DNA from: Candidatus Iainarchaeum sp.
GTDB taxonomy: Archaea; Iainarchaeota; Iainarchaeia; Iainarchaeales; VGJJ01
Direction: 5' to 3'
Assembly (NCBI GenBank): GCA_016198125.1
Contig: JACQJG010000010.1
Span: 1-33,723, forward strand
DNA length: 33,723 nucleotides
Below are positions 1,969-33,659 of the stretch, in pieces. Numbering within the stretch: position 1 is the stretch's first letter; each line of letters begins with the position of its first letter. Made by a program: the position numbers and the translations under genes. The notes below the pieces were generated by a model. That model did not search any database and was not told the origin of the DNA. It saw only the letters and a program-made list of their open reading frames with translations.

Positions 1969-4900
1969 TCACGGCACCATGCACGCGTTCACCAAGGGGA
2001 ATGCATCCGAGGTAAAACCGTTGTTTAACAGGTCCGTGTGCAGTTTCTTTGGATTCCAGAACACGTTGGCATTCTGCGCGTCTCCCCCAATGCAGAGGTA
2101 TCCTGAACCAATCAAGTTGAACAAACTCTCAATGCTTTGAATGGACCCAATGGAAGAAGAACTGGCCGTGTAATCCACTCCAAAAGTCATATTGCCTCCT
2201 GCAACCTTGTCATGGGGCGCGAAAAAGGAAGCCTGCTTATTGTTCTGGCTGGGCGTTGACGGGGGGTTACTGCATGCGCCCACGAGTTCATACGACTTGC
2301 TTATGGGCGTGTAGAAAATGGTTTCATAGAATATTTCTTCGTTTGGAATATTGGAATAGGCAAATCCAAGGGCCTGGCCGTCGCTCCCGGAAAGCGAGCA
2401 GTGGGAAGTTGAACCTGCGCTTGCAGCGGTTGCATCTGGGAACTGCTTGGACGCAAATGCATTGCCTGAAAAGTCTGCGCACAACTTGCACTCCGGGCAT
2501 CCCGCATCAAAGAACTCTTTGCTGGACGCAATCGGATTCCACGCGGAAAGCATTCCATTAACCGGAGACAGCACCTGGGCGTCTTCCTTCAAATAATAAA
2601 ATGCCCCGTCCACTTTGCTGTTTACGGCCTTCAACTGCACGGCCACTGGCGTGGCATTGGACGGCAAATATGAAAGGGTTTGGCTTCCAAGGTTCACGCG
2701 CAAAACCACTCCCCGGTTGTTGATGTTGGTTTCCACAAAAGACTTGGGGTGGGAAACGCCCAGGGCATAAACCGTGTTCGCAGAATTGCCTCCGTACGTG
2801 TAAACGGCCTGGCTTCCTTTGAGGAGTACTGGAACATCTGTGGCGCCAAAGTAACTCACTCCGTACCCGTCACGGTGCAACGTAGAGGTATTGAAGTCAT
2901 ACCCCAGGGGACCGTCAAATGGAAGGCGGTAAAACGCGTTATCTTCCAAAACCGCGCTGATTTCCCCTATCTTGGAAAGGTTCACTGTAATACTTGCGGC
3001 AGGCGCGCCTCCTGCAAAGAACTGGCCTTCAGCGCCCAGCCAGTTCACGTCCACTTGAACGTTGTACAGGCCGCTGGAGGGAAGGGCAGTAGAACCCCCC
3101 GTGTTAAAATTCAACGTGTCAGGTATTGCGAAATAATGGGAGAAATTGGTGTCCCCTCCTGGAGCCCCGCGGAACCAGCTGGGGGTTTCAAAGAACGTGG
3201 ACGCATAATAGGACACAAAATCTTTTTTAAAGTCCTCGGAAAACCCGTCCTTGATCAAATAGGCGTTAAAATTCAGCAACGTGGGGGCTGCTGACAGGTT
3301 GCCTGCGTCCGCGGCTTCCTTGACCTGGTTGAGCTTGTTGAACAATTCAACGCTGAATTGCGCGGCATCGCACACCACAAATGCAGGGCTGCCTGCACCG
3401 TCTTTCTTGGATTCATCGCACAAGTCAGATTCAAGGCTGGTCCACTTCCAGTCCAATTTAACTTTGGGCTTGAATTCTGCGCCTGAAAAGCCTGTCAGCC
3501 CATTGGCGCCTTCGCACAACTCGGCTTCACTGGACACAAGCTTTACGCTGAACTGCTGGGTTTCAATGGGCAGCGTTTTCCTCAACAATAACTCTGCAAT
3601 AAAATTCAGGGGAGTGCCTTGGACGTAATCTGTGCGCATGCTTTCCACCCATCCATTGCGCTGGCCGGCAAAGAACCCAAAAAGCTGCAGGGTATCATTG
3701 GCTGAATAGGTGGATTCTGCAATAAGAGAGGCAATGCCTGATTCCACTGGAATGCCCATGAACACAACAGCGCTTACATTTTTTCCTGCCAATGCGTCCA
3801 CTGCGGCTTGGGCGGCTGCCTCTTCGTACGCCTGCCAATAGCTTGTCCCGGGAGCGTCGTTGTTCTTTCCGGTAGGGTCGTTGTCCGCGAAAAGCATGAG
3901 TGCACGGTATGAATTTTCTGTCCACGCGTGCTTGTTTGCAACGTCAATGATTCCAGGGCCCCAGGATTCTGTGTTATCATCCACTTGAACGGCATAAGAG
4001 TTTGAGTAATTCCAGCCTGCAACGCTTGCGCTTGCGCATTCACCAGGCAGACCGCTTGGAATGCCGCCTAAAACATACACTTTTCCATTTACGGTAAACC
4101 CTTTGGCTGCAAGCAGGGACTTTATTTGCGCATGTTGCGTACACGCCTCAGGCAATTCGCCTGCCATGCTATTGGACGTGTCTACAACGCTTACCAAATC
4201 AAATATTTTTGGAAAGGTCGTTGAAGGAAGCGCGTAATCCTGCACGGTAAACAAGGCATACTTGCTTCCTGAGAGCCCCTTGGAGGCAATGGAAAAATTC
4301 AGGTTTCCCTGATCGTCCTCTTCAGATCCCACGTATTGGGCAAACGCTTTGCCGTTGAACAGGAACGCGTGCACGTTGCTTGAAATACCTGAAGGACCGG
4401 TGCCACTTCCGCTAACGGAAACATTGGCGTTCCCCCCATCCTGCGGGTCAACGTTAGGGCCTACCACTTTGTCTGTTAAAACGCTTTCCACTTTCAACAG
4501 CGTGGAAGAACTTGCATTGAATTGTTTAAGGTAAAAGTGGTACGACTGTTCATCAAAGCCTCCCGCGAGCGCGTCTGCGGCTGAAGACTGCAAACTCCCC
4601 ACTTCTGTCGGCGTTGAGGTGCCTGGAACCAGGGTGCCTTGGCCGGTGTCATGGGTAGTGTTCGGAGACGGCTTAACTGCCGGGGCAATGGAAGCAAATT
4701 TGGACAGGGGCTTGTCATCCTTGTCTATTTTGGTGAAGACCTTGAGGAATGCATCCGTGCTTGAGCCGTCAGAGACCAGCACCTCGATTTTGTTTACCCC
4801 TTGGCGCAACGTCACATTATATTTTACCACGTCATTGCTTTGAGATTCCCCTTCTTTCTTGCCATTAAAGTAAAAGGCCACGGTGTGCTCGCCTTCAATG

Positions 4901-7900
4901 CGGATGACCAAAGGCGTTTCCGCATTGGCGTACATGAACGTGCGGTACATCCAAGTGTCATCCTCGTTTCCGCCCCCTTTACCGTTCAGAGGCAGGTTTA
5001 CTTCATCCTCTATCAGTGAAACCTCTACATCCGGGTAGCTGGAGTCAAAAGCACTGGGGTGAAAGAACGCTGTTCCGCCAAGGGCCACGCCGTTTACGTG
5101 GTAGCGAAGCCATTTCTTGTCATCACCGGAAAGCAAAAACGCTTGCCTGACTGTATCTGCAGACCAGTCCACTGTCAATGGAACATTTGGATTGAATCCC
5201 GGGGGCAAAACCTTGTTGGAAATAAACGCGCCGCTTTCCGCCAATGCAAACCCCGGCTTTGAAACATCCTGGACATGCACATGGCAATTGTTCTTTATCA
5301 TTCCAGCCGAAGGGCCTTGGGACAACTCATATTCAGTCTTGTCCAAGGACATGCACTTCACCGGATTGGTGACAAACGCTTTTATCTCCTTTACAAGGGA
5401 AGCCGTGGTCTCAGAGGAAAACTTTGCATACACATATACTGGCAGCTGCCCCAAAGGTTTGGAAGAAGGGGCTTCCACTTTCACGTCCTTGCTTTGATTG
5501 GCATCCAAAGAAAAACAGGGCGACTGGTTTGCACACGTCATGGGGGGATTGGTAGTTGAATGATCCAATGAAAGCGTGGTGCCTTCTCCTGCAATGGTGA
5601 TTTCAACGGTTTCCTTACAGTCATTGGACGTGACTTTGAACGTGTCCGAAGCCAGGCCCTGAATGAGGTTCAACGTGGACTTTGAAACGTCAACGCAGTC
5701 AAATTTAACTGAAGGGTCCTGGCCTGAGCCCAGGGAAACTGGAATGGTGGCATTGAACGGAACAAAGTCCGGAACTGTAACTTCCAACAGCACGTTTTTG
5801 CCGGGGTCCAATGCCGGCACTGCAATTCCAACAAACCCGTTTGCACTTGTCTGCGTGGCAATTAAGGGGTCATTGGCTTTTGAATCCACCCACACTTTCA
5901 CATCGGCAATCATAGGAGTATTGTTTGAATCCGTTACCCCCACGAGTAAAGTGTTGGGCACGCCTGCCAAGAGAAAGCCCGGAGAATAGGTTACAATCAA
6001 TTCCTTGTCCGCAGGAATTGAAAACTTCAGGTCCTTTTTCTTGTCCGGAGACGTGCCCACGTTCTGCAATTCCACGCGCACAGTTGCAAGAGAAGCCGAT
6101 GCTGTAGGCTTCAGGTAAAACGTTCCGCTGACTGTTTGATCATCAAAGAACGCGCCAAGTGGAATAGAAACAGGAATGGATGCCGTGGGGGCTGAAGCCA
6201 GGTCGACGAGCATAGATGCATTCAACGGAGTGACCTGCAAGCTCACATTGGAAGACGATGAAAAGTTTTGATCGGAAAAATTCGTGGCCTGAAAGTCCAC
6301 CTGGAACACGTCATTTTTCTTCAACTGGGTAACGCCTGCATCGTTGACCTGGCTTGAAACAGAGTCTCCTAGTTTTTTGATGAAAAACACAAACGCAAAG
6401 TCCGATTGGCCTTCAATGGGCTGGCCTACGGTGAACGTTTTAAGGAACGTGGGCGTTTTGCCTGTAATGCCGTCGGCTTGAAAGCGTACTTCTATTTTAT
6501 CGTTGGTTACAGCACCGGGTTTCACGAACACGTGCACAACGTACTGGTACTGGCCTGCACTCAACGTGGATAAATCCAGGTTGGCCAGCTTGGCATCTGT
6601 TGAAACAGGTTGCGGAATGCTGTACGCATTTGCGGGGTTGAATACTCCTGAATAAACAGGCGTGCCATTTCCGGGGAACAACTTGGCTATGTTCACAATG
6701 TCCTGGGCCTGGTCAAGGTTGGCTTCCTTTCCTGTACGCGTATGGGTTTTGAATGCCTGGCCTTCAAGCCCGGCAGGAACGGTTAAACGGAATTCCAATG
6801 CATAGGTTGAATTTGGAATCATCGTGGAGGCAAGGGATTGCTGGGAGGCATTCCACACTTTCAACAATTCAACATTCAGGGAATCCGATGCCCCTGGTTT
6901 TTTGAGCGTGGCAAATAGTGTTGAAACATTTCCCTTGATCACCTGAACGGCATACGTGTAAAACGCATAATACCCGGACTTTGAAACAACGGCATAAACC
7001 ACTTTGTTTGCATCAAAAGAGGCAGACGCTTTTCCCTGGGCGTTTGTGGCAACCGTGCTCAAAGGCGCTGTTGCTCCAAATGCATAAAATGCCACGTTTG
7101 CATCCGCGATTTTGAGCGCAGAGCCTTCCTCGCTTACCACCACATCCACTTTTCCCGCGCCCACGCTCAGTTTTACTGGAAATACAGTTTTCTTGCCAAG
7201 TACCACCTGATTCAAATCACTCTTTCCTTCCAGTGCATTACTGTCTGCGCGCCCCTGGTACGTGCCGGCGGGCAGGTTGTTGAAAGGAGCGTCTCCCTGG
7301 GCGTTGGACGATTTTTTGTCTACAAACAAGCCGTTAACATCCTTCCAGTAAAGCCATGCCGTAGCGCCGTTGATAGGAAACCCAACCTCATTGGACACTT
7401 TAACCTCGCCAATCCCTGCATTGGAAACTCCTCCTGAAGAATCAAATGCAAGGGCTTCCAATTGCACTACGTAAGGAGCGGTTTCATCCTTGTTGAGCAG
7501 GGGAATGGTTTCCAGTATTTTTATCACATAACTCGCATGCCCCACTACGGCTGCTGGAGAGGCATTGGTGTCTCCTGCATTAATGAAAGCAATGCCATTG
7601 GTGTCTGTGTACGTTGTATGAAACAGGGTTTTGTTCAGGAAAAAGTACGCCTGGGCATATGCGACTGGCTGCTGCTGGGGGTTCACCACTTTAACAAAGA
7701 ATTTCTTTTCATTTGAAGAGGGAGCCAGTACTATTGAAATGCTCACGTCCTGGCCTGCATTCACCTGTTTTGTGGTTGACTGCTCATTCTTAAACCCCGA
7801 TTTTTGCACGAGCACATAATAACTTCCAGGCTCCACGTCATTGAATGTAAATGTCCCCCCTGCATCTGTTGTGCCTTGATTTGCAAGCAATGCACTCCCA

Positions 7901-8718
7901 GTGTCAGGGACGCGGTACAATTTTACCTGGGCGCCTGCAATAAGGCTCTGAGTATTACTTGTCACGGAAACCGAAAGCGTGCCCTTTAATACCACTGGCG
8001 GGAGTTCGCTGAGCGTGGCTTCCGTGGAGCTTGCCTGCAGTTCCAATGTCTCCTCTTCAAACCCCGGCACAACAATGCGTGCAAACAATTTCCCGCATCC
8101 GGCAGGCTGGGGCACAGAGATTTCGCCAATCGAAGAATGAATGGGTTCCGGGGCATTGGAAGAATCCGTGCACGAAAAAGAAACCACAATTGAAACCGAA
8201 GATTCAGTGCCAAGCACTACTCCATCGCTGTCCTTGATGGTAAGCGATTTTGTCACAGGGGGCTGGGGAAGCTTTTGAAGGGAGATAAGAAACGTCTGAC
8301 TTTCGTTCACGTCAAATTGCTCGGAGAAAGGCTTGAATCCAGGCACGTTCAATTCTACTGTTAAAGGAGACTCTTCAGGTTTTACTTCAATGGAGAACTT
8401 TCCAGTTGCATTCGTTATCTTGTCCACCCCTTCTCCACTGGCCAGTGTGAGGGTTGCAGGAATGCCCGCCAATGGATTACCATCCGGGTCCTTGAGTTCA
8501 AAGTTAACGTTAAATGCCACAGGGGTTGGAGGCTGAAGGGGAATCCATTGAAATACTACGTATACCAGCCCTCCCAGGAGTACAAGAATAACTGCAATAA
8601 ATACAATGAAGCTTGGAACAACCCTGTCAATGGCGTCTGCGATGTTTCCCAAATGAAGGGCATCCACCATGTCATAATATTTGTCTTCCAGATTATGATA
8701 AAAGTCCATTAAACCCAT
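1969..8718 (-). CDS. Giant membrane-anchored surface protein (2249 aa) with carboxypeptidase-regulatory-like/Ig-like repeats and a vWA-like region
   Basis: Short N-terminal cytoplasmic segment, TM (FIVFIAVILVLLGGLVYVVFQWI), repeated Gly/Asp/Tyr beta-sandwich segments (TDAGGTFTFNDVEPGSYYVLVQKSGF), MIDAS-like DTSNS in LVSVVDTSNSMAGELPE, many N-x-S/T sites. Confidence 0.85.
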   Translation of the reverse strand: MGLMDFYHNLEDKYYDMVDALHLGNIADAIDRVVPSFIVFIAVILVLLGGLVYVVFQWIPLQPPTPVAFNVNFELKDPDGNPLAGIPATLTLASGEGVDKITNATGKFSIEVKPEESPLTVELNVPGFKPFSEQFDVNESQTFLISLQKLPQPPVTKSLTIKDSDGVVLGTESSVSIVVSFSCTDSSNAPEPIHSSIGEISVPQPAGCGKLFARIVVPGFEEETLELQASSTEATLSELPPVVLKGTLSVSVTSNTQSLIAGAQVKLYRVPDTGSALLANQGTTDAGGTFTFNDVEPGSYYVLVQKSGFKNEQSTTKQVNAGQDVSISIVLAPSSNEKKFFVKVVNPQQQPVAYAQAYFFLNKTLFHTTYTDTNGIAFINAGDTNASPAAVVGHASYVIKILETIPLLNKDETAPYVVQLEALAFDSSGGVSNAGIGEVKVSNEVGFPINGATAWLYWKDVNGLFVDKKSSNAQGDAPFNNLPAGTYQGRADSNALEGKSDLNQVVLGKKTVFPVKLSVGAGKVDVVVSEEGSALKIADANVAFYAFGATAPLSTVATNAQGKASASFDANKVVYAVVSKSGYYAFYTYAVQVIKGNVSTLFATLKKPGASDSLNVELLKVWNASQQSLASTMIPNSTYALEFRLTVPAGLEGQAFKTHTRTGKEANLDQAQDIVNIAKLFPGNGTPVYSGVFNPANAYSIPQPVSTDAKLANLDLSTLSAGQYQYVVHVFVKPGAVTNDKIEVRFQADGITGKTPTFLKTFTVGQPIEGQSDFAFVFFIKKLGDSVSSQVNDAGVTQLKKNDVFQVDFQATNFSDQNFSSSSNVSLQVTPLNASMLVDLASAPTASIPVSIPLGAFFDDQTVSGTFYLKPTASASLATVRVELQNVGTSPDKKKDLKFSIPADKELIVTYSPGFLLAGVPNTLLVGVTDSNNTPMIADVKVWVDSKANDPLIATQTSANGFVGIAVPALDPGKNVLLEVTVPDFVPFNATIPVSLGSGQDPSVKFDCVDVSKSTLNLIQGLASDTFKVTSNDCKETVEITIAGEGTTLSLDHSTTNPPMTCANQSPCFSLDANQSKDVKVEAPSSKPLGQLPVYVYAKFSSETTASLVKEIKAFVTNPVKCMSLDKTEYELSQGPSAGMIKNNCHVHVQDVSKPGFALAESGAFISNKVLPPGFNPNVPLTVDWSADTVRQAFLLSGDDKKWLRYHVNGVALGGTAFFHPSAFDSSYPDVEVSLIEDEVNLPLNGKGGGNEDDTWMYRTFMYANAETPLVIRIEGEHTVAFYFNGKKEGESQSNDVVKYNVTLRQGVNKIEVLVSDGSSTDAFLKVFTKIDKDDKPLSKFASIAPAVKPSPNTTHDTGQGTLVPGTSTPTEVGSLQSSAADALAGGFDEQSYHFYLKQFNASSSTLLKVESVLTDKVVGPNVDPQDGGNANVSVSGSGTGPSGISSNVHAFLFNGKAFAQYVGSEEDDQGNLNFSIASKGLSGSKYALFTVQDYALPSTTFPKIFDLVSVVDTSNSMAGELPEACTQHAQIKSLLAAKGFTVNGKVYVLGGIPSGLPGECASASVAGWNYSNSYAVQVDDNTESWGPGIIDVANKHAWTENSYRALMLFADNDPTGKNNDAPGTSYWQAYEEAAAQAAVDALAGKNVSAVVFMGIPVESGIASLIAESTYSANDTLQLFGFFAGQRNGWVESMRTDYVQGTPLNFIAELLLRKTLPIETQQFSVKLVSSEAELCEGANGLTGFSGAEFKPKVKLDWKWTSLESDLCDESKKDGAGSPAFVVCDAAQFSVELFNKLNQVKEAADAGNLSAAPTLLNFNAYLIKDGFSEDFKKDFVSYYASTFFETPSWFRGAPGGDTNFSHYFAIPDTLNFNTGGSTALPSSGLYNVQVDVNWLGAEGQFFAGGAPAASITVNLSKIGEISAVLEDNAFYRLPFDGPLGYDFNTSTLHRDGYGVSYFGATDVPVLLKGSQAVYTYGGNSANTVYALGVSHPKSFVETNINNRGVVLRVNLGSQTLSYLPSNATPVAVQLKAVNSKVDGAFYYLKEDAQVLSPVNGMLSAWNPIASSKEFFDAGCPECKLCADFSGNAFASKQFPDATAASAGSTSHCSLSGSDGQALGFAYSNIPNEEIFYETIFYTPISKSYELVGACSNPPSTPSQNNKQASFFAPHDKVAGGNMTFGVDYTASSSSIGSIQSIESLFNLIGSGYLCIGGDAQNANVFWNPKKLHTDLLNNGFTSDAFPLVNACMVP

Positions 8719-29069: not shown

Positions 29070-30089
29070 ATGGAGAACCGGGTTTTTATTGGCGGAATTG
29101 ATGAAACAAAGCTCTTTTTTGAACAGGCAAAAAGATACGGTGATTTTAAAACGTGGAAAGCCCTCTGGACGTTTTTGGAGGTTGGCCGCGGAAGCTTTTG
29201 GAATATGTACATTGGAAAAACAAGTATCCCAAAAAATATTTTCCTAAAACTTTGCAAATTTCTTCCAAAAGAACACCAAAAAAGATACAACCATGTTGCT
29301 GTGGTTAAAGATGGAAACTGGGGCAGAAAAAAAGGCGGGCGGACGACTTATTCCAAGCACCCTGAAATATTTGAATTAGGAAGAAAAATGCCAAGAAAAT
29401 CAAATAACATGTTAGGGCAGAGAAGATTTAATTTTGACCAGCCACTTTCAAGCGATTTATGTGAGTTTCTTGGGGCGTTTGCAGGAGATGGGTTCACCAA
29501 CAAATATGGCCGCCACTTTCATACAGGATTCTCCGGAGACAACCGGTATGATATGGATTATTACAACACCAAAATACTACCTATTGCAAAAAGATTGTTC
29601 AATATTAATTCGGCTTATGTTAGAAAAAAGGGAAATGGAATGTGGGTTAATTTCCATTCCAAAGACCTATTTGAGCTGTTGACTAAACGATTTGGTATGC
29701 CTGCTGGAGTGAAGTTCGACAAGGTAACTATCCCCACAGAGATTATGAAAGATAGAATAGAGTACAAAACTGCATTTGTTCGAGGAATATTGGATACAGA
29801 TGGTTGCGTCTTTTTCGACAATCGAAAAACATACAAAACACCTTACTTCAGAATTGATATTACAATGTTCAATATTCCTATATTGGTTCAAATTAACCAA
29901 ATTCTAACCGAACTTGGAGTCCATTCAAAAGTTCTTGGAAATGGGAAACACTTACAGGTTACTTCAAAGAAAGACGTTGAAAAATTCCTTCGCATTATCG
30001 GATCTTCCAACGAACGACACATCTCCAAAATAGAGAAAAAGTGCCCTAATTTTAGACAATGGAATCCTGCATTCAACCCGCCTTCTTAA
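29070..30089 (+). CDS. LAGLIDADG homing endonuclease (two-motif)
   Basis: CEFLGAFAGDGFT and FVRGILDTDGCVFF dodecapeptide motifs about 125 aa apart; visibly A/T-richer than its neighbours. Confidence 0.85.
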   Translation: MENRVFIGGIDETKLFFEQAKRYGDFKTWKALWTFLEVGRGSFWNMYIGKTSIPKNIFLKLCKFLPKEHQKRYNHVAVVKDGNWGRKKGGRTTYSKHPEIFELGRKMPRKSNNMLGQRRFNFDQPLSSDLCEFLGAFAGDGFTNKYGRHFHTGFSGDNRYDMDYYNTKILPIAKRLFNINSAYVRKKGNGMWVNFHSKDLFELLTKRFGMPAGVKFDKVTIPTEIMKDRIEYKTAFVRGILDTDGCVFFDNRKTYKTPYFRIDITMFNIPILVQINQILTELGVHSKVLGNGKHLQVTSKKDVEKFLRIIGSSNERHISKIEKKCPNFRQWNPAFNPPS

Positions 30090-31415: not shown

Positions 31416-31916
31416 TCACTTGACAACCACTAAATTGGTCATGCCCCGGCGCTTGCGTTCAATGGCCCCCTTGGATTCCAGTTTGTCCAAGACACGGGAC
31501 AATTTGACTTTTGAAAAACCCGTGGAACGGATCAAATCGCTTTGAAACAGCGAACCATGGGCATCCACCATTTTCTGCCATACGGCTTGTTCGTCGCTTT
31601 CCAGCAGGGACGCATCAAAAGAAGGTTTTAATGCAACGGCTTCAGGTTCAAGAGCTTCGTGTTGAAGTGTATTTTTTTCCTTTCCACCGGTAAGCACAAA
31701 GTAAACGCCCATTCCAAATGCAATAAAAGAAACGCCAAAAGCCGTAATGAAATACCATGAAACGGCCTCATTGTGCGCGGGACACTGGGACATGTCCAAA
31801 TTCTCTTCCGTATAATACTGGCACAAGGCCAGGCCCTGCGCGTCGGTGTTGGCCTTGAGCGCGCCCAACGCGGCACCCAACACAATGGCGCTCAAGATGA
31901 GCACGATTCCAAGCAT
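31416..31916 (-). CDS. Membrane-anchored winged-helix (MarR-like) transcriptional regulator
   Basis: Two N-terminal TMs; C-terminal HGSLFQSDLIRSTGFSKVKLSRVLDKLESKGAIERKRRGMTNLVVV. Track start is 31955; a TATA-like TTTATAAA at about 31964-31971 is too close to it, so ATG at 31916 is favoured. Confidence 0.75.
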   Translation of the reverse strand: MLGIVLILSAIVLGAALGALKANTDAQGLALCQYYTEENLDMSQCPAHNEAVSWYFITAFGVSFIAFGMGVYFVLTGGKEKNTLQHEALEPEAVALKPSFDASLLESDEQAVWQKMVDAHGSLFQSDLIRSTGFSKVKLSRVLDKLESKGAIERKRRGMTNLVVVK

Positions 31917-32008
31917 GCGCGACTGAAACAAAGATGCCCCCAATAAATTACCCACAAACCCTCTTTATAAACCCCTCTCTTTTCACGAGTAAAACGCCTT
32001 TAAAGCCT

Positions 32009-32022
32009 TGAAACTAGTTTCA
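32009..32022. promoter_or_regulatory. Perfect 14-bp palindrome TGAAACTAGTTTCA upstream of TATA (TATAAAGG, 32031-32038)
   Basis: Read directly; in the divergent intergenic region. Confidence 0.65.
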
Positions 32023-32060
32023 CCAGTACGTATAAAGGCCGTTGCACGGGCATTGATTGC

Positions 32061-32117
32061 ATGAACAAACAAAAACAAAAATCCTGCCTACATGGCAGGA
32101 ATTGGAGGCGCGTGTAA
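32061..32117 (+). CDS. Possible 18-aa leader peptide/uORF MNKQKQKSCLHGRNWRRV
   Basis: ATG lies about 26 nt downstream of the TATA box; its TAA overlaps the downstream ATG (TAATG). Confidence 0.35.
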   Translation: MNKQKQKSCLHGRNWRRV

Positions 32118-32848
32118 TGAATGCTGAATGGTTAAACAAGTTATCCGTATGGCTGGTGGCACTGGCACTGGCTTTTTCGGTTATAAATTTTCTCCAGTTG
32201 TCAACGATTTCCGGAATGATAGGAAGCAACAGTCAGGGAACCGGCTCGCTTATCACAGGTCTTGCAGTTACCCCAAATTCCGGACAAACCCTGCCCACCC
32301 AAACAGGAAACACTGGGAAGACCCCGGTTACGGCCTCGTTTGAAGGATTGCCCAAAGGCGTTCCAGCCATTTATGGTGCTGAGTTAGGGGTAAGCTTTGA
32401 TGACGTAAGCGTGAAAAACCCGCAAAATGCCGATGCGACCATTAAAAAACTGGCCGTACTCGACCAGCAAATCACGTTGAGCGGAGCAGACTTGGAACGG
32501 TACAAAACCATTGCATTGCAGATCAGCTGCGAATATTGCTGCGGTGCCCCCTCCATTATCTTTGACAACGGTGACCCTGCTTGCGGGTGCGCGCACAGTT
32601 ATGCCATGCGCGGTCTCGCCAAATACCTCATAACAAAACATGGAATCGAATACTCGGATGACCAAATTCTTGAAGAAATGGCAAAGTGGAAAACGCTTTT
32701 CTTCCCCGATGTAATGGCCCAAAAAGCCCAGGTCATGAGTGCAAAAGGAATTGAATTCAATTACATCAACCTGGCGTCCAACAAGTACCGGGGCCTTGAA
32801 AACGAAGCGCAAAGCAATGGAAGCGGCGGAATGGTTGGAGGGTGTTAA
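32117..32848 (+). CDS. Single-TM protein with extracytoplasmic CxxCCG...CGCAHS domain and C-terminal MVGGC
   Basis: TM LSVWLVALALAFSVINFL; ISCEYCCGAPSIIFDNGDPACGCAHSYAMRGLAKYLI; ends SGGMVGGC. GGAGG at 32104-32108 favours ATG 32117 over the track start TTG 32057. Confidence 0.8.
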   Translation: MNAEWLNKLSVWLVALALAFSVINFLQLSTISGMIGSNSQGTGSLITGLAVTPNSGQTLPTQTGNTGKTPVTASFEGLPKGVPAIYGAELGVSFDDVSVKNPQNADATIKKLAVLDQQITLSGADLERYKTIALQISCEYCCGAPSIIFDNGDPACGCAHSYAMRGLAKYLITKHGIEYSDDQILEEMAKWKTLFFPDVMAQKAQVMSAKGIEFNYINLASNKYRGLENEAQSNGSGGMVGGC

Positions 32849-32849
32849 A

Positions 32850-33203
32850 ATGAACGAAGAATCCCCAAACCATTCCAGCGAAGAAAAGCCCTGCTGCGGG
32901 CACTGCGCCACGCATTCCAAACATTTCAAAGAGGAAAATGCAGAGGCAACAGATTCGAAAAGCACGAATGGCATGAAAGCCTATTTTTTGGTGGGCGCTG
33001 CACTGGTGTTGGCGCTCATTTCTGCCATTCAATTCGTGCAAGCCGCCCAACTCGTACAGGAAATTGAACGCTCGCCTTCCGTATTCTACGGGGCGCCCGG
33101 TACAGGCCTTGCCACTACAGGCCTCCTGGATTCTGCCTATTCAACGCCTGACTCCAAGGAATCGAGCACAGCCAACAGTTCGACTATGGTGGGAGGGTGT
33201 TGA
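32850..33203 (+). CDS. Single-TM protein with N-terminal CCGHC motif and C-terminal MVGGC
   Basis: ATG at 32850 gives MNEESPNHSSEEKPCCGHCATHSKHFK...TM...SSTMVGGC; 1 nt after the previous stop. Confidence 0.78.
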   Translation: MNEESPNHSSEEKPCCGHCATHSKHFKEENAEATDSKSTNGMKAYFLVGAALVLALISAIQFVQAAQLVQEIERSPSVFYGAPGTGLATTGLLDSAYSTPDSKESSTANSSTMVGGC

Positions 33204-33659
33204 ATGCATGCAAGGATTGCACGCGTGCTGGGGGCAGTGGGAGTTGGACTCCTTTCACTTCCACGACTTGTTTCCGCCCATTGCCCTGCATGCGCCCTTG
33301 CAGTAGGCGCTGGCGCGGCCACGGCTTCCTATTATGGAATGGGGGCCGGCGCCGTAGGCACATTCGTTGGAGGCTTTGGCATTGTGATGGGCCTATGGAC
33401 TGCACGAATACTCAAACACGACCATAAACCCGTTCATAAAACGCTCATTGTGGGAGGCACGCTGGGCCTCACCCTCCTTGGACTTGGAGCGATTCCAAGC
33501 CAAACCATGTACGCGCCGGTCTCTCTTATTGGGGCTCCTGGAACATGGCTAAACAAAGTGTACTGGCTGGACAAAGCACTGATAGGAGCCGGGCTTGGAA
33601 TACTTGCCGCATTGGCCGCACACTATGCGCACAACCGCTTGAATAAGTCTCTGGGTTGA
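33204..33659 (+). CDS. Polytopic membrane protein with HCPACA motif after the first TM
   Basis: MHARIARVLGAVGVGLLSLPRLVSAHCPACALAVGAGAATASYYGMGAG... about four TM stretches; ATG directly abuts the previous TGA. Confidence 0.75.
   Translation: MHARIARVLGAVGVGLLSLPRLVSAHCPACALAVGAGAATASYYGMGAGAVGTFVGGFGIVMGLWTARILKHDHKPVHKTLIVGGTLGLTLLGLGAIPSQTMYAPVSLIGAPGTWLNKVYWLDKALIGAGLGILAALAAHYAHNRLNKSLG

Follow-up and report, generated by a model that had tools for sequence, protein, structure and literature searches.

Two membrane proteins encoded side by side in Candidatus Iainarchaeum sp. end in the same five residues, MVGGC, and the question raised by their locus is what a C-terminus shared in this way might do. 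The initial annotation had proposed a thiol, metal or lipid-anchoring system, in which the terminal Cys is a site of modification, metal transfer or sorting and the product of a third gene is the enzyme or transporter partner.

Organisation of the locus

In the window (the whole stretch of DNA that was analysed, 33,723 nucleotides) three genes, here called P1, P2 and P3, follow one another on the + strand with gaps of 1 nt (P1 to P2) and 0 nt (P2 to P3). P1 (32117..32848), delimited by its open reading frame (ORF) and its relatives, encodes 243 amino acids comprising a transmembrane (TM) anchor, a flexible linker, a Cys/His domain with the sequence CEYCCG...ACGCAHSYAMRGLAKYL, a short linker and the MVGGC tail (32831..32845). 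Its most likely start is the ATG at 32117 rather than the TTG at 32057, because a putative Shine-Dalgarno sequence, GGAGG, lies just upstream (32104..32108, + strand). P2 (32850..33203; ORF and partner ORFs) encodes 117 amino acids, with a CC motif predicted to lie inside (CCGHC, 32892..32906), a TM segment, a low-complexity linker and the MVGGC tail (33186..33200). P3 (33204..33659; ORF and family alignment) is an accessory polytopic membrane protein with an (A)HCPxC motif after the first hydrophobic segment (HCPAC, 33279..33293). The first two proteins end SGGMVGGC and STMVGGC, and both tails contain GGAGG directly before the next start, so that they probably double as the Shine-Dalgarno sequences of P2 and P3, respectively. 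All motifs and the packing of the genes are as the initial annotation had described; its span, 32009–33659, takes in the three genes but begins about 100 nt upstream of the likely P1 ATG.

A divergent regulator gene (31416..31955, − strand; Pfam PF24034, E 5.5e-12) precedes the set and encodes two TM segments, a Cys-containing loop (CQYYTEENLDMSQC) and a C-terminal MarR-type winged helix (DUF7343). Elsewhere in the window, inspection by eye indicated a stand-alone protein resembling LAGLIDADG homing endonucleases (29070–30089, + strand) and a membrane-anchored surface-type protein of 2249 amino acids with repeated carboxypeptidase-regulatory-like segments (1969–8718, − strand).

Distribution of the MVGGC tail

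Genomes were scanned with the pattern ATG-GTN-GGN-GGN-TGY-TRR / ATGGTNGGNGGNTGYTRR, the reversed pattern serving as control. The genome of origin (846 kb in 20 contigs, 71% complete) has two matches, which are the ends of P1 and P2, and none to the control; the identical pentapeptides first noted are thus the sole two such ends in that genome. When 87 genomes of the window's phylum were scanned blind, 18 of them proved to have tail sites, 36 in total; each site belonged to a P1 or P2 gene, and the control had no match. Relatives of P1 are present in 19 of these 87 genomes and nearly all end in M/QVGGC, and when the 19 loci were aligned the gene after P1 encoded a short single-TM protein with the same tail in every locus of sufficient length.

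A search of the GTDB genome collection for P1 relatives gave 251 stretches; of the 80 that were kept, nearly all are DPANN and carry the labels Woese-, Pace-, Aenigm-, Nano- or Micrarchaeota or Diapherotrites. Each of the 38 genomes bearing collected P1 loci has tail sites, and the controls gave none. A second phylum, to which a Woesearchaeota genome belongs, was sampled evenly (237 genomes) and yielded 150 tail sites in 64 genomes against two matches to the reversed pattern. In this sample 64 genomes have both P1 and the tail, two have P1 only, none has the tail only and 171 have neither, so that every tail-bearing genome (64/64) has P1. The two genomes with P1 only, as judged by the pattern, carry variants: in G135 both P1 and P2 end in QVGGC, and in G199 P1 ends in IVGEC. 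Every tail ORF that was inspected individually was P1 or P2.

Among 80 Bacteroidota genomes there were two tail matches (one a stray P1, the other lacking a stop codon) and four in the controls. The reversed-pattern controls and the Bacteroidota genomes rule out the tail as an artefact of chance or composition. A P1 with MVGGC lies on a Bacteroidetes-labelled contig beside other genes (L146), which represents a chimeric assembly, contamination or transfer. In the DPANN genomes, MVGGC is found on essentially nothing but P1 and P2 and is conserved among orthologues; the original observation is correct and much stronger than was first stated.

P1 and its Cys/His domain

The cluster C138, C141, C142, C156, C158 and H160 (32528..32596, + strand) is invariant in alignments of 20 and of 90 P1 sequences. 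The structural model has an N-terminal TM segment, a low-confidence linker, an ordered helical core (pLDDT >90) and a flexible tail (pLDDT ~60–70). Neither P1, P2 nor P3 has a convincing family match in Pfam or NCBIfam, and the description of the system as new is borne out for these libraries; the P1/P2 system is described in no library searched. The 90 P1 members gave no Pfam match to metal proteins, to thioredoxins or to families relevant to MerA or HgcB. The helical model has no PDB match at E <= 0.001, no PDB sequence match was obtained either, and neither P1 nor P3 had a usable match in the structure search. Membership of the thioredoxin family was rejected on the helical model and the absence of PDB (E <= 0.001) and Pfam thioredoxin matches, and homology to MerA/HgcB on the absence of a relevant Pfam match and of a PDB sequence or fold match.

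The sole distant relative found is the C-terminal domain of neighbouring proteins that we label 'PQ' (YRPCC...DCNHGMAALALAELMA..., no Pfam family), with which the P1 Cys domain aligns (HHalign 83%). The 'PQ' proteins differ from P1 in being lipoprotein-like, in having fewer Cys residues and in lacking the MVGGC tail. PCYCGC proteins (PF13798), which also have a Cys-rich extracytoplasmic domain, occur in some of the same loci as P1; P1 was rejected as a member of that family (no hmmscan match, HHalign 1%). In L020/L042, L196 and L197 a MerT-like multi-TM segment with CPSC or CPVCQ precedes the P1 domain in a fusion protein. In L240 (3304–3862, − strand) a divergent P1-like protein lies directly before P3, with no P2, and ends in GTGGC, a third variant of the tail.

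P2 and the origin of the pair

P2 consists of an anchor, a linker (median 40 residues) and the tail. In all of 128 P2 sequences no further Cys lies between the TM segment and the terminal Cys; a CC pair precedes the TM segment in 21 of them and, by the distribution of positive charges, the N-terminus is predicted to be inside in most. The terminal Cys is thus predicted to be exposed at the outer face of the membrane. A P2 with the tail follows P1 in 111 of 116 distinct P1 loci, and several loci have two P2 genes, both tailed.

It had been argued that the two tails follow otherwise dissimilar sequence and so speak against gene duplication. The dissimilarity is only partly right, as P1 and P2 can be aligned over their TM/juxtamembrane segments with an HHalign probability of 95.7%, while five control TM families reach at most 12.4%. 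The case against duplication therefore fails, the pair having the anchor as well as the tail in common, and a duplication is likely, P2 having the appearance of a P1 minus its Cys domain. The synonymous sites of the P1 and P2 tails agree at 40% within one genome and at 33% between genomes. With synonymous agreement of 0.40 vs 0.33, a recent duplication of tail DNA can be rejected and the identity of the tails must lie at the protein level, which supports the earlier proposal of a selected tail and points to strong selection on the protein.

Loss and variation of the tail

The tail is absent from 18 of the 116 distinct P1 proteins, and in all 18 cases the next gene is a tailed P2 (15 MVGGC, 3 QVGSC). 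Five tailed P1 proteins are without P2 in the same count, four of them close to the ends of contigs or stretches; the fifth is L073, in which P2 is present and its MVGGC is followed by a further seven residues. Two genomes (L017 and G135) have Gln in place of Met in both P1 and P2. Tail loss limited to P1, together with the paired Met-to-Gln changes, argues that the P2 tail is the indispensable one and that a single partner seems to read both tails; of the tail residues, Cys varies least. Agreement between P1 and P2 in the residues just before Met reaches significance in the second tail type alone, where the relatedness of the genomes could explain it.

P3 is linked to P1 but optional

H26, C27 and C30 of P3 are invariant in the family alignment. 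In the window's phylum P3 is present in 5 of 87 genomes, all of which have P1 (hypergeometric chance ~3e-4), and in the second phylum in 44 of 237, 41 of which have P1. Run on these 237 genomes, the co-occurrence check set out by the initial annotation has P1 accompanying the tail in 64 of 64 genomes and P3 in 41 of 44. It is absent from 14 of the 19 P1 genomes of the former and from 25 of the 66 of the latter. P3 is thus linked to P1 but optional, and the proposal that it is an obligatory enzyme or transporter partner does not hold. Three genomes bear P3 without P1, and in two of these a short single-TM protein ending in or near Cys is encoded just upstream; these proteins (L237 and L238), which end ...TMQGC or ...AVLGCSG, are possibly analogues of P2.

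In the window, the ORF of P3 is ended by an in-frame TGA (33657–33659, + strand) that lies inside the family match, and homology to the family runs on in frame past it as TLFPFQGIAFMIAF to the end of the contig. This copy is truncated, nonsense-mutated or mis-sequenced. P3 resembles the MerT-type mercury carriers (PF02411) in being a membrane protein with a Cys motif near metal genes, but its Cys motif precedes the second segment. It was rejected as a MerT member, since none of 57 P3 proteins has a MerT match and HHalign with the MerT-like neighbours gives 9%.

Gene neighbourhoods

Relatives of the membrane regulator adjoin P1 in 73 of about 94 loci examined. The usual order in loci of the window type is the MarR-like membrane regulator, P1, P2 (one or two copies) and P3, followed by a soluble helical protein ending in DCCKE, an ACCxHH membrane protein and DUF411; subsets of these loci have HMA proteins and P-ATPases, cupredoxins, PCYCGC proteins, MerT-like proteins and BlaI/M56 regulators. 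In another genome of the same family (G074) the order is P1, P2, P3, the helical protein ending in DCCKE, an ACCAHH protein and, further on, CopA. The soluble helical family ending in (D)CCKE follows P3 in ~41 loci (L135, L134, L024 and others) and has no Pfam match, and another neighbour family is weakly MerT-like (PF02411).

Among the neighbours DUF411 was counted in 35 loci, an HMA ATPase in 13 and a cupredoxin in 9; in the co-occurrence count with P1, DUF411 is rare in the window's phylum. The linked P-ATPases, present in only a minority of loci, mostly have CPC, N(x)6YN(x)4P and MxxSS, which are P1B-1 Cu(I) signatures. The genome of origin has, on another contig (C11; L231 1772–7503), a cluster encoding a cupredoxin-like protein, an HMA chaperone, a CopA ATPase and a multicopper oxidase, adjoining a MarR-like membrane regulator similar to that of the window. 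P1B-1 ATPases are Cu+ pumps (PMC5552934), and a DUF411 protein of Pseudomonas is responsive to copper stress (PMC6444534). In many loci P1 and P2 thus adjoin known copper-resistance sets of bacteria and archaea (CopA P1B-1 ATPase, CopZ/HMA, cupredoxin, multicopper oxidase, DUF411), from whose members P1, P2 and P3 differ in having no convincing match in the family libraries. These neighbours suggest that, outside the cell, copper or a similar soft metal is handed from protein to protein by the terminal Cys.

Loci of a second type encode mainly CcdA/DsbD, TlpA-like and tandem glutaredoxin-like proteins. In such loci (L185, L188, L195 and L198) a small lipoprotein gene lies right after P2 and encodes an internal, tail-like VGGGCG or GGCG.

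Proposed function

The reading that we prefer, at a probability of about 0.5, is that P1 and P2 form a membrane-tethered relay for a soft metal, most likely Cu(I), at the outer face of the membrane. The Cys5-His domain of P1 would be the binding or receiving site, and both proteins would use the C-terminal Cys of their flexible tails as a mobile thiolate arm to take up the ion. The ion could then be handed over within the P1–P2 pair and to membrane partners that vary by locus, namely P3 with its AHCPxC motif, the MerT-like and ACCxHH proteins, the Cu-ATPase and the cupredoxins. One tail would be enough, so that loss of the P1 tail may be tolerated while the P2 tail stays, and we propose that the need for both tails to fit one common reading site preserves the Val, Gly and small residues near the Cys. 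Met, being replaceable by Gln, is not an obligatory ligand. The divergent membrane-bound regulator probably switches the set on. We infer metal binding, the identity of the metal, its hand-over and the direction of transfer.

There are precedents in HgcB and MerA, in which C-terminal Cys tails transfer metal; in HgcB the loss of either tail Cys is tolerated and the loss of both is not (PMC7305189). By analogy, a terminal Cys on a flexible tail may in P1/P2 also capture a soft metal for delivery to an internal Cys site, and the sufficiency of one of two Cys in HgcB resembles that of one of two tails here. The features that such an analogy calls for are present: the tail is modelled as flexible, the Cys occurs in all P2 proteins collected, and the invariant Cys/His cluster of P1 is a candidate internal site. 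The tails of MerA and HgcB differ in that they end a soluble enzyme and a ferredoxin, respectively, while those of P1 and P2 are TM-anchored, are predicted to lie at the outer face and have a fixed pentapeptide.

The relay is favoured by the pairing of P1 and P2, by the exclusivity and conservation of the tail, by the concerted changes, by the single thiol predicted outside and by the copper-gene neighbourhoods, among which a linked Cu(I) P1B-1 ATPase places a minority of loci with copper-resistance modules by context. Against it, the genes most specific to copper are found in only a minority of loci, a thiolate ligand alone needs no invariant Val-Gly, and no fold or profile match puts P1 among metal proteins. 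The second locus type, rich in thioredoxin-like and CcdA proteins, fits thiol redox chemistry equally well. Overall, the direction of the initial annotation stands, its role for P3 and its argument against duplication having failed; a thiol or metal role fits, but lipid anchoring is the least supported of its options because P1 and P2 already have a TM anchor.

Alternative explanations

The neighbours in the second locus type lead to a metal-free alternative, which we consider unlikely without dismissing it, in which electrons travel between CcdA/DsbD-type membrane carriers and the P1 cluster or thioredoxin-like partners by way of the terminal Cys of P2 and P1. Thioredoxin reductases have mobile C-terminal redox tails to which those of P1 and P2 may be likened, and the CxxCC cluster of P1 and the one predicted-outside thiol per P2 would suit such a relay. 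P1, however, has neither a thioredoxin fold nor a CxxC active site, as judged by the model and Pfam, and the commonest recognisable neighbours in loci of the window's type are metal genes.

The near-strict conservation of five residues across phyla, and the M-to-Q changes made in concert by two proteins that would need one common reader, could also be understood if MVGGC were a recognition or modification tag whose Cys is lipidated, ligated or trimmed by an enzyme, giving a second attachment to the membrane or the cell wall. This seems distinctly unlikely, as both proteins are already anchored, no candidate enzyme is common to all loci examined, and some tails are extended or altered (the P2 of L073, seven residues past the Cys, and the IVGEC of the G199 P1). 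Sortase and archaeosortase signals need a hydrophobic and a basic segment after the motif; no such segment follows MVGGC, which is the extreme C-terminus, and P1 and P2 were accordingly rejected as substrates of these enzymes.

It is less probable still that the tails are structural, the terminal Cys joining P1 to P2, or two P1, by a disulfide with the shared TM segment as the dimer interface. The common anchor, the obligatory pairing and the single Cys per P2 ectodomain would all be expected of such a dimer, but a disulfide needs no invariant M-V-G-G, and the P2 tail is conserved even where a tail-less P1 has removed the partner of the bond.

Finally, Gly-Gly-Cys codons can spell GGAGGTG, and the tail as a mere by-product of the next gene's Shine-Dalgarno sequence has a negligible probability and is ruled out as the sole cause. 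In its favour, GGAGG is present in each of the window's two tails, 0–1 nt separating them from the next start, and it is commoner where the next start is near (44/58 vs 18/34). Against this, it is absent from 113 of 221 tails (present in 108), tails are kept with the next partner, P2, up to 716 nt away, and many are a long way from the start that follows. Moreover, Val and Gly are each encoded by all four of their codons, and conservation extends to Met, Val and Cys.

Significance

The MVGGC tail in the sense described here was not found in the literature searched. A broader reading of the tail, which is possible but which we hold only tentatively, is that MVGGC is a dedicated DPANN C-terminal address or modification tag, borne by two kinds of membrane protein per system, with one partner that modifies the Cys, docks on it or transfers cargo there. 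To our knowledge, such a class of C-terminal protein signal is not known in any organism.

The system is conserved, easily recognised and made up of unnamed families, and roughly one in four of the DPANN genomes sampled has it. It bears on how DPANN archaea handle metals and thiols. The tail offers a five-residue handle with clear predictions, namely whether its thiol is free, whether Cu(I) is bound and which protein reads it. If the metal relay is true, P1 and P2 would represent a tethered-tail way of moving copper outside a cell with a tiny genome; if the tag is true, MVGGC would be a new kind of C-terminal signal.
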